Shown: positions 19,506 to 23,337 of the stretch, piece after piece | Position numbering within the stretch: the stretch's first letter is position 1 | Layout: every line of letters starts with the position of its first letter | NCBI GenBank assembly: GCA_029260035.1 | Contig: JAJDEA010000264.1 | Coordinates: 1-64,000, forward strand | Length of the DNA: 64,000 nucleotides | DNA from: Phycisphaerae bacterium | GTDB lineage: Bacteria > Planctomycetota > Phycisphaerae > UBA1845 | Direction of reading: 5' to 3' | Position numbers and translations under genes: made by a program | The notes under the pieces: generated by a model | What the model saw: only the letters and a program-made list of their open reading frames with translations | Databases searched by the model: none | What the model was told of the DNA's origin: nothing

Positions 19506-19554
19506 TAAAAAAAAACGAGCGAAAGCCCCCGTGTGTATGAGGTGCTTTCGCTCG
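19506..19554 (-). terminator. intrinsic terminator for the Cys/Lys-rich small gene
   Basis: CGAGCGAAAGC (19516-19526) and GCTTTCGCTCG (19544-19554) form an 11-bp perfect stem around a 17-base loop. On the minus strand the stem is followed by a run of about nine T (plus-strand A tract at about 19507-19515), the classical layout. It lies 64 bases downstream of the minus-strand gene ending at 19618 and may also slow the convergent hydrolase transcript. Confidence 0.85.
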
Positions 19555-19617: not shown

Positions 19618-19857
19618 CTATGCTTTTTTCCCGCAAGGCTTCTTGCAGTTTGAGCCACACTTTTTCTTGGCGCCTTTGGCTTGCTTGCAGCAAGCTTTCT
19701 TGCAGTTAGCACCGCACTTGCTTGCCCCCTTGCTGCATTTCTTTGTTGTCGGGCAACGCGAACATTGCGAACAACCGAGATTGACAGTTGAGAAAGCGAC
19801 CAAACAGATAGCCGCAACAAAAACCTTCGCGTACTTACTAAGCAGACTCGTTTGCAT
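19618..19857 (-). CDS. small exported Cys/Lys-rich protein, possibly metal-binding
   Basis: 79 residues from ATG 19855-19857 with AAAGGA about 8 bases upstream (an ATG at 19863 is too close to it). The N-terminus is a signal sequence (KYAKVFVAAICLVAFSTVNLG) followed by Cys29; LGC resembles a lipobox but the -3 residue is Asn. The 51-residue mature part has 11 Cys, many Lys and almost no acidic residues, in patterns CSQCSRC, GANCKKACC and GSNCKKPCG. This suggests metal binding or disulfide-rich packing, and the basic charge suggests a polyanion partner. A strong terminator follows. I do not recognise a named family. Confidence 0.75.
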   Translation of the reverse strand: MQTSLLSKYAKVFVAAICLVAFSTVNLGCSQCSRCPTTKKCSKGASKCGANCKKACCKQAKGAKKKCGSNCKKPCGKKA

Positions 19858-20002
19858 TGCCATTTTCCTTTGTTTATGTTTCCCGTCTCACCAACTCGCC
19901 GCTCGCGAGCATTATCGCAGAGCCACCCTAGCAGATCGGGGGTTCCTATTAAAGACGTCACATTCAGGATGTTGTCGTCGTGTTACAAAAGGCTCACAGC
20001 CA

Positions 20003-21067
20003 TTAGGCGCTCGTAAGGATGTTTAGAATGTCCCCATCGTGGACAACGTACGTCTTCCCCTCTTTTCGGACCCTGCCAGCTGATTTCGCACCTTTCATAT
20101 CCCCGTGCGCCACAAGATCATCATAGGATACAGTTTCAGCTCGGATGAAACCTTTCGCAATGTCAGTGTGGATCTTTGAGGCCGCTCCCACTGCGGTCGT
20201 CCCCTCTGCGATGGGCCAGGCGCGAACCTCGTCCGTACCAACCGTTAGGAATGAAATCAGCCCGGCTGCCTGGTAGCAAGCCTGAATCAGCCTGTCTCGC
20301 GCGGGCGTATCTATCCCCAACTCTTCGAGGAATGCTGGCCTGTCCTCCGGATCAAGTTGCGCAACTTCGGACTCCAGCGATCCGCAAATCGCAACGGTCT
20401 CTTTCACATGCTTGAATTTCCAATCTGTAGAATCCGCATCCTGACCGTCAGCTAGATTCAAAACACAAAGGATCGGCTTCTCCGTCAGGAACGCGAAGCT
20501 TGACACCTGTTTCCGCTCGTCATCGGTTCGGACAACCGCAGACAGCGGCTCTGACGCTTCCAACGCTTCACGGCAGCGCGCCAGCAATTCCATTTCTTTC
20601 TTTTCCGCATCGTGCGTTTTAGTCGGCTTTTTGAGAGCCGATTCCAACCTTTCGCAACGTGTAGTCACGGCGTCCAGGTCAGCGAAGATCAACTCCTCCC
20701 ACATCGTCTGAAAGTCGCTCCCGGGGTCGGCTTTGCTATCCGTCGGCGACTGCGACGGATCCTCGAACATCCGCACGACAACAACCAGGAGATCAGCCTG
20801 TCGGATGGAGGGCAGGAATCGGCGCCACTCCTGCTGCCCCTTTGCGTCACTCAGCAAGCACCCTGGGATGTCTACCAACTCCATCGTTGCTTCGATGGTT
20901 TTTTTGGGTTTGTATACCGAGGTAAGATGCGTGAGTCGCGGGTCGGGAACACGCACTGTCGCAGCGCGCGGCTCGGGTGGAGCGAAGGAATCGACGAGGG
21001 TTCCGGTAGCAGCCGTGAAGAGCGTGGACTTCCCAGCCTGCGGAAGTCCGATGATAGCCGCCTTCAT
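20003..21067 (-). CDS. ychF: YchF-type Obg-like ATPase
   Basis: 354 residues. YchF proteins are Obg-family P-loop ATPases that associate with ribosomes. Motifs: G1 is GLPQAGKST at 7-15, G3 is VDIPGCL near 65-71, the G4 position reads NLADGQ where the family has an NxxE that gives ATP preference, and a C-terminal TGS domain contains SYDDLVAHG and RVRKEGKTYVVHDGDIL. The usual GLPNVGKST is altered to QA. Its ATG overlaps the stop of the GreA-like gene by four bases, so the two are co-translated. Nucleotide preference is not certain given the altered G4. Confidence 0.92.
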   Translation of the reverse strand: MKAAIIGLPQAGKSTLFTAATGTLVDSFAPPEPRAATVRVPDPRLTHLTSVYKPKKTIEATMELVDIPGCLLSDAKGQQEWRRFLPSIRQADLLVVVVRMFEDPSQSPTDSKADPGSDFQTMWEELIFADLDAVTTRCERLESALKKPTKTHDAEKKEMELLARCREALEASEPLSAVVRTDDERKQVSSFAFLTEKPILCVLNLADGQDADSTDWKFKHVKETVAICGSLESEVAQLDPEDRPAFLEELGIDTPARDRLIQACYQAAGLISFLTVGTDEVRAWPIAEGTTAVGAASKIHTDIAKGFIRAETVSYDDLVAHGDMKGAKSAGRVRKEGKTYVVHDGDILNILTSA

Positions 21068-23337
21068 ACCCCGCTTTCCCTTCCCTGAGCTGATTTTTCC
21101 AGCGTCGCCGAGGCCTCTGATTCGCTAGCGGAATCGACGCCCTCGATCGCATTTGAAAGTTCGACGAGTTCAAAAGTGCCCTTGGCCCAACTCACATCAA
21201 AGTCGAAAGACTCGCCAATTCGCATTCCCATCAGTGATTGCGCGAGAGGCGCCTTGTAATTCAGCCAGGAATCTTCAGTGCCAGCTTCCCATGGACCGGC
21301 AAAAGACAGTGGGAATGTGTTGCCGTCCGTTTCATGTTTGAAAACAGCCCGCGAACCAACACCAAGATGGTCAGTCGGGACATCCTCGGCAGTGAGAACC
21401 TTAGCCATGGCCATCTCTTTATTCATTTGTCCGAGCCTGGCACGCAGAAGATCGCGTTCTTCTAGAGCAAATTTGTACTCCGAATTCTCGCTCAGGTCGC
21501 CGCGTTCCGCCGCCTCACCGATTGCTCGCGCGTTTTCCTTCATTTTTACATTCACATGGTGCTCAACTTCCGCGTGCTTCTTGCGCATCCCCTCGTCGGT
21601 GACGTACAGAATTTCCGTCCGTTCCCACTTGTCCTGCACCTTCTTCTGGTCCATAGTCGGGAACCGTTCGGCGATAATGCCAAGCATGTCTTCACGCGCG
21701 GCTCGGCCCAGCCCTTCACACCGCAAGAGTTGCCCCTTCAATGCCACAGCCATACCAATCTCAATGTCTTCAACGCACTGCCGAAACCGATCAAACTTCT
21801 TCGCGGGCAAAACAGCACGCACTCGTGTTGTTATTTCTCGCTCGAGCGATTTGCTTATCGTGTCACTTCTGCGACTCTCCTCAACTGTCCGCAGAATCTT
21901 CATAACTAACGTAACGGGCGTAACCCCAGGTATTTCCTTTATGATATCTGGCCCGTTCCATAACCAAAGAAGTGCGCCGAAATGCTCGGTTGGGTCTATG
22001 AAAACACGCTGTACGGCTGACTCAAACTGATCGAACTCGATTCCCGCCTTCGTTAGCCGAGATGCGAACACATCGCAGGATGAGGTTGATGCGGCAGGCA
22101 AAAGATTCAAGAGCGCACTGGTCCACTCGTCTGGCCTGGAGCGAGCGAGGCATTCACAGGCTCCTTCTATGAGCTTTGCGTCTTCTGCTTGCTTAAAGAC
22201 CTGATCGAGCTTTTCGCATTTGGTAAACCACTCCGTCGCTTCGTCCCAAGGAGCATCAAGCCCCCCAAGCTCGCAGACGCGTAGGCTAATGAGCCAAAGC
22301 AAGCCCGCCCGAACGGCGCCTTCTTTGGACAACTCGACCGCCCTGCCATAATACCGCTGATAGCACTCACCCATCAAGTCTTCTGACGGTTCACTTTTTC
22401 TTAGTCGGCCATCGCGAACATGTTTTTCCAAAGCAGCATGCGACAGCAAGGGATCATTTATGGTACGGAACTCGTTGAGAAAATTGTCGTCGTGCGTCGC
22501 GTCTGAATCGACAATCGTAATGACATAAGGCGCTCGTCCTTCGATAGTCATGTCCGACGTCTTTTTGATTGCTGCGCGAGCTTTCGTCCACCATTTCTTC
22601 CATTCGTCCACAGCCATCAGGTCCGGAACAAGCATTGCCTCGAGATCCGTACTCTCGATCGTGCCACCTTTTTCTCGGCATAAATCCATCACAATCGTTG
22701 CAGGGGCCTTCGCCAAAGTAGTCCGCAACTGGTCCATCGCAAAATGGCGCAAGACTCGGAATTCATTGGCCAATGCAGGCTGATATTCATCAGCAAGAAG
22801 CACGGCACCGAGAGATATCGAGCCGTTGCCTGTCTCCAGCGTATACTCCCATGCCGCGCGATCGACCGCTTCGATGCGAGCCGCTTTATCTTCGTCTCGC
22901 CCCCCGAGATAATCGCCTTCGTTAATTTGCAAACATACGTTAAGTGTGCGCAGAGCACGGCGCACCGGTCGACCTCCTTCGATGCCAGCCTCCGCCAACA
23001 GCTCTTCCAGCCCTTCCGCACCCTCATAGGCCTGTTTGTACAGATTGCAGACCTGCTTGCGCAATTCGTCGCTCTTACCCACCGCCTGCAAAAAAGGACC
23101 AGCGACCGTCAGCGCTTCTTTTGGAGTACATCGGCTCAACAAAGATTCGATGCATGCCCATGCGAGCGTCTCGGCCAGCGCAATGTTGCCTTGCTTCTTA
23201 AGTTCCGCCAAGGCCACGTCGTACTTGATGAACTTCTCCAGCGGGCGGTCTGATGATTCGACCATCCGCATCCACTCTTCCTCGGTCGTGCGCGCGTTCC
23301 CGGCTTGGATCAACTGGACGAATGATTCGGGCTGCAT
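21064..23337 (-). CDS. 757-residue GreA-like transcript-cleavage factor with a long helical N-terminal extension
   Basis: Standard GreA is about 158 residues; here the GreA part occupies only about residues 575-725. The coiled-coil tip GDLSENSEY carries the two acidic residues (Asp614, Glu617) that reach into RNA polymerase's secondary channel to trigger cleavage of backtracked RNA. An FKBP-like Gre C-terminal domain follows (VGSRAVFKHETDG, KAPLAQSLMGMRIGE). Residues 1 to about 560 are helical, TPR-like and without named motifs; the last 35 are acidic and disordered. Chlamydiae have a comparable long GreA-like protein, so this may be a PVC trait. ychF overlaps its 3' end by four bases. Start ATG 23337 has GAGGGA nearby. 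Confidence 0.85.
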   Translation of the reverse strand: MQPESFVQLIQAGNARTTEEEWMRMVESSDRPLEKFIKYDVALAELKKQGNIALAETLAWACIESLLSRCTPKEALTVAGPFLQAVGKSDELRKQVCNLYKQAYEGAEGLEELLAEAGIEGGRPVRRALRTLNVCLQINEGDYLGGRDEDKAARIEAVDRAAWEYTLETGNGSISLGAVLLADEYQPALANEFRVLRHFAMDQLRTTLAKAPATIVMDLCREKGGTIESTDLEAMLVPDLMAVDEWKKWWTKARAAIKKTSDMTIEGRAPYVITIVDSDATHDDNFLNEFRTINDPLLSHAALEKHVRDGRLRKSEPSEDLMGECYQRYYGRAVELSKEGAVRAGLLWLISLRVCELGGLDAPWDEATEWFTKCEKLDQVFKQAEDAKLIEGACECLARSRPDEWTSALLNLLPAASTSSCDVFASRLTKAGIEFDQFESAVQRVFIDPTEHFGALLWLWNGPDIIKEIPGVTPVTLVMKILRTVEESRRSDTISKSLEREITTRVRAVLPAKKFDRFRQCVEDIEIGMAVALKGQLLRCEGLGRAAREDMLGIIAERFPTMDQKKVQDKWERTEILYVTDEGMRKKHAEVEHHVNVKMKENARAIGEAAERGDLSENSEYKFALEERDLLRARLGQMNKEMAMAKVLTAEDVPTDHLGVGSRAVFKHETDGNTFPLSFAGPWEAGTEDSWLNYKAPLAQSLMGMRIGESFDFDVSWAKGTFELVELSNAIEGVDSASESEASATLEKSAQGRESGV

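Follow-up and report, generated by a model that had tools for sequence, protein, structure and literature searches.

The Cys/Lys-rich gene and its surroundings

The window (the whole stretch of 64,000 nt that was analyzed) comes from a 4.9-Mb draft genome, and it contains on its minus strand a gene (19618..19857) encoding a predicted lipoprotein of 79 amino acid residues that is rich in Cys and Lys. The stop codon lies at 19618-19620, and two ATG codons, at 19863 and 19857, were candidates for the start. If translation began at the in-frame ATG further upstream, at 19863, the protein would have 81 residues (two extra), while the start at 19857, which is also the coordinate in an earlier note on this DNA, gave the best fit in the homolog alignments. 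The full protein consists of MQTSLLSKYAKVFVAAICLVAFSTVNLG followed by a mature chain of 51 residues starting with CSQCSRC. As shown by the open reading frame, the homolog alignments and the dN/dS values, the gene is real and conserved: dN/dS was 0.09-0.15 between pairs of homologs, which indicates purifying selection on the gene in the relatives. The small Cys-rich reading frame, for which the earlier note gave no strand, was thus borne out as a conserved coding gene on the minus strand.

The ychF gene (20003..21067, minus strand), assigned by a TIGR00092 match above the cut-off, is located upstream of the Cys gene on the same strand, and 145 bp separate its end from the Cys gene. Next to it, a protein of 757 residues with a C-terminal GreA/GreB domain (Pfam PF03449 and PF01272) is encoded at 21064..23337, also on the minus strand. 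Five genomes belonging to three genera (g1, g8 and g16) share the order GreA-like–ychF–Cys gene, and the other Cys-gene loci had unrelated neighbors. The 757-residue protein, which has a large N-terminal region, adjoins ychF in those five genomes.

On the other side of the gene, a Rho-independent terminator was found in the sequence (19507..19554, minus strand), with an 11-bp stem (19516-19526/19544-19554), a 17-nt loop and a T-run. The earlier description of a strong terminator that isolates the gene holds for the terminator itself, but the isolation is qualified by ychF, which lies so close upstream on the same strand; the high expression proposed with it is unsupported, because a terminator is uninformative on the level of expression. 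No sigma-70-like promoter was found at the window gene and no conserved regulatory motif upstream, where the intergenic alignment of the five genomes contained scattered conserved positions only.

Signal sequence and predicted lipid anchor

The first 28 residues (19774..19857, minus strand) were deduced to form a signal sequence, based on the sequence itself, on homolog conservation and on a relaxed lipobox; they end in ...STVNLG ahead of Cys29. When 21 homologs were aligned, the position of Cys29 was invariant and the preceding Gly near-invariant. The strict PROSITE-type lipoprotein pattern is broken in the window protein by Asn at position -3, and the relaxed pattern was passed; the strict pattern was satisfied by 15 related loci. 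In the lipobox-like LGC proposed earlier, the G-C pair and the invariance of the Cys were therefore confirmed, but the residue at -3 departs from the strict form. A signal sequence and a lipobox before an invariant Cys, as in bacterial lipoproteins, were found, in the window protein through the relaxed pattern only, and the window protein is probably exported and lipid-anchored.

Mature chain and Cys units

The mature chain of 51 residues (19621..19773, minus strand) contains 11 Cys and 15 Lys, one Arg and no Asp or Glu, which gives a net charge of about +16 (counted from Cys29 in the 79-residue numbering). This composition count agrees with the basic chain described in the earlier note, and the three motifs listed there (CSQCSRC, GANCKKACC and GSNCKKPCG) were all located in the sequence. 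CSQCSRC (19753..19773, minus strand) is N-terminal and includes the Cys predicted to be lipidated. The first Cys unit, CGANCKKACC (19687..19716, minus strand), contains the conserved columns C48, C52, C56 and C57, and in the second, CGSNCKKPCG (19630..19659, minus strand), Gly replaces the last Cys of the CC that is usual in the homolog alignments. When the identical residues were shuffled, two copies of C-x3-C-x-K-x-C were rare, occurring in only 603 of 100,000 shuffles.

In the homologs, the conserved unit was K-C-x3-C-x-K-[PA]-C-C-K, present in one to five copies per protein after the lipobox. The search for homologs with conserved Cys spacing that had been called for was run, and it was the Cys spacing that proved to be conserved, with the Cys positions among the best-conserved columns of the alignment. 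The metal-binding idea thus withstood that half of the refutation named in the earlier note which concerned the Cys pattern. Since the unit itself holds four Cys, the parity of the Cys count is uninformative on disulfides. An AlphaFold model built on an alignment of six rows had a pLDDT of 48.5 and no confident fold; this value fits a chain that would fold on metal, and it fits the shallowness of the alignment equally well.

Distribution of the family

According to the profile search (E 0.001), 21 of the 51 genomes in the same taxonomic family contained the Cys family, with G013 as a doubtful case, and so did a further five genomes of the order. When the search was widened to the whole class, family f8 contributed members and family f21 a single genome (G380), and among 392 genomes sampled from the phylum the Cys family was not found outside the window. 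Two scans of genome collections yielded no match and seven named loci, respectively. The carriers among the relatives were recorded as Phycisphaerales or Phycisphaerae. One locus (L063, JANQQE010000011.1), titled Alphaproteobacteria, holds a Phycisphaerales-type gene in conserved Phycisphaerales synteny, and this bin is probably mislabeled. About half of the same-family genomes lacked the Cys family, and nearly all of these had CusA/CzcA pumps; with its patchy occurrence beside near-universal pumps, the family would be accessory to metal efflux, not core.

Links to metal-handling domains and operons

Homologs with Cys units carried a C-terminal YHS domain in three genomes (G039, G045 and G380). 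The YHS domain of G380 scored over the Pfam cut-off; those of G039 and G045 matched the G380 domain when only two sequences were compared with phmmer (9e-10 and 2e-9, respectively) and did not reach the Pfam YHS model. In G380, about 36 bp separate the start of the Cys/YHS gene from the preceding CusB gene, whose product contains HMBD and YHS domains. Downstream lies the gene of a CusA/CzcA pump that scored over the TIGR00914 cut-off, and the gene of an outer-membrane efflux protein is located upstream, all on one strand. The operon (L092:5503-12913) reads CusC–CusB–(Cys/YHS lipoprotein)–CusA. The YHS domain of this lipoprotein closely resembles the C-terminal YHS domain of the adjoining CusB, which suggests a duplication. 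Elsewhere in family f21 (L136-L146), small exported YHS lipoproteins without Cys units were observed near CusB-YHS proteins in several genomes. In genus g16 (L097, L105 and L106), the lipobox is followed by the sequence CP[LFY]SGQKS, which looks like the beginning of the YHS domain in G039 and G045 and is possibly a remnant.

A second kind of fusion was found in Flavobacteriales, where an exported HMA protein (PF00403 over the Pfam cut-off) carries three Cys units. Its Cys unit was 59% identical to the window protein over 32 aa and 33% identical to the G380 protein over 55 residues. The exported HMA proteins of Flavobacteriales (L117-L126) share a GMTCxxGC motif, and their tails vary, holding between zero and three Cys units. 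When the HMA fusion was used as the query in a plasmid search, only P-type ATPases and one unannotated archaeal match were obtained. With its 10 residues, the unit is so short that it could have originated repeatedly, which weakens the link from the fusions to the window gene.

The window protein itself contains no HMA or YHS domain by Pfam. In the host genome, at least two CusA/CzcA pumps scored over the cut-off, and an HMA-containing sequence was found as well. Around 27 Cys loci, no heavy-metal gene was recognized except at G380, among the 25 commonest of 65 Pfam families. By itself, a single efflux operon in a set of 27 loci could be due to chance; the operon and the YHS and HMA fusions taken jointly are hard to explain without a role in metal handling.

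Proposed function and alternative explanations

Judging from these sequence comparisons, the protein is probably a Sec-exported, lipid-anchored protein whose Cys/Lys tail binds soft metals, most likely Cu(I), as a buffer of the envelope. The signal sequence and lipid anchor would lead to export via Sec and hold the protein at the membrane, most likely facing the periplasm. The clustered Cys would form metal-thiolate clusters, most likely with Cu(I) and possibly with Ag(I), Zn(II) or Cd(II), the Lys residues would balance the negative thiolate charge, and the mature tail, unfolded without metal, would fold around it. Such a membrane-tethered buffer may lower the free periplasmic metal and could hand it over to CusCBA/CzcA efflux pumps, which are encoded elsewhere in the host genome; the number of units (one to five) would set the metal capacity. 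The metallothionein-like metal binder of the earlier note gains from the conserved Cys spacing, the HMA/YHS fusions and the one CusCBA context, although no known metallothionein family was matched. A broader and more tentative proposal, which we consider possible but would not yet favor, is that C-x3-C-x-K-x-C-C-K is a transferable metal-thiolate cassette, a solo envelope lipoprotein in Phycisphaerales and an add-on to HMA/YHS proteins elsewhere, that would buffer Cu(I)-like metal destined for efflux of the CusCBA type.

Several observations weigh against metal buffering: the fusions occur in relatives and are absent from the window gene, the same-family genomes without the Cys family have pumps nearly throughout, and a heavy-metal neighbor was recognized only at G380. 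Moreover, the host genome encodes two VKOR-domain proteins, so envelope thiols could be oxidized to disulfides. These two proteins, together with the small size, the many Cys and the lipoprotein signal, are what a structural envelope lipoprotein would share, one in which disulfides within or between molecules stabilize the outer membrane as for OmcA of Chlamydia. We regard this main alternative as unlikely, given that HMA/YHS fusions and a CusCBA operon context are unexpected for a structural protein, that the unit number varies and about half of the related genomes lack the gene, and that no large Cys-rich partner gene was seen among the neighbors. Less likely again is an envelope-anchored thiol redox buffer or oxidant scavenger tied to a stress that is handled with ychF. 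NCBIfam labels YchF a redox-regulated ATPase and the position after ychF is kept in five genomes, but this linkage is limited to genera g1, g8 and g16, the neighbors elsewhere are unrelated, and the HMA/YHS fusions would be left unexplained.

The two remaining explanations have very little probability. In a bufferin-like RiPP, the Cys would be modified by an MNIO enzyme for copper binding; the window protein is likewise Cys-rich and predicted to be exported, and about 16% of Buf2 are predicted lipoproteins (PMC12452194). However, PF05114 (MNIO) was not found in the host genome, which is about 95% complete, and this argues against a bufferin, as do the presence of MNIO in only five of 51 family genomes and the lack of a bufferin-family match. 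A secreted, cationic, Cys-rich antimicrobial peptide of the defensin type is just as improbable: the strongly positive mature chain and its many Cys would suit it, whereas the predicted lipid anchoring, the variable unit number and the metal-domain fusions would not, and no immunity or processing genes were recognized nearby.

Characterized bacterial metallothioneins are mainly cytosolic. Bacterial metallothioneins have also been described as rare (PMC7558416). If the metal-buffer reading is true, a lipid-anchored, modular metallothionein would mean that metal is buffered at one more level, the cell envelope, in a phylum (Planctomycetota) whose metal biology has been little studied, and the Cys unit could be used as a signature in searches for unnamed metal-binding tails of exported HMA/YHS proteins. 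No paper on such a Cys-unit family was found in the literature search, which covered few subscription journals.

Comparison with known systems

The window protein had no match in Pfam (E 1), one match in NCBIfam (an unrelated family, far below the cut-off) and no family match in the PDB, and it is therefore not a member of the profiled metallothionein or Csp families. Membership of Metallothio_Pro (SmtA type) was rejected, as the profile match was absent.

OmcA is a small Cys-rich lipoprotein of Chlamydia, which belongs to the same superphylum as Planctomycetota, and it has a cross-linking role. For chlamydiae, PMC1403754 treats OmcA and a small cysteine-rich lipoprotein. The likeness to OmcA is one of small size, Cys richness and lipoprotein signal, and no Cys-rich partner gene was seen next to the window gene. 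With 11 Cys in 51 residues, the window protein has the small chain and high Cys content of a metallothionein. The bacterial metallothioneins (SmtA/BmtA and MymT) are likewise small and Cys-rich, with no confident fold predicted without metal; in contrast to them, the window protein is predicted to be exported with a lipobox, and its tandem C-x3-C-x3-CC arrangement of Cys differs. In Flavobacteriales and in Cus operons, the Cys unit recurs in some exported HMA/YHS proteins, where it forms a tail or a linker, whereas the window protein consists of a signal sequence and a Cys tail only, with no folded metal domain.

Two further groups resemble the window protein in being Cys-rich metal binders. 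The bufferins (Buf1/DUF2282 and Buf2), which are MNIO-modified RiPPs, are exported Cys-rich copper binders, some of them predicted lipoproteins (PMC12452194). They differ from the window protein, which has no DUF2282 match and in whose host genome no MNIO gene was found. The Csp proteins are Cys-rich metal stores and in this respect are like the window protein. Csp1 of methanotrophs is an exported copper storage protein, and Csp3 is cytosolic. Csps are four-helix bundles (PMC7558416), whereas the window chain is shorter, has Gly and Pro in its units and has no Pfam match. Since the bufferins (PMC12452194) and Csp1 are already exported Cys-rich binders, an exported metallothionein would be less unusual than the earlier note had stated.
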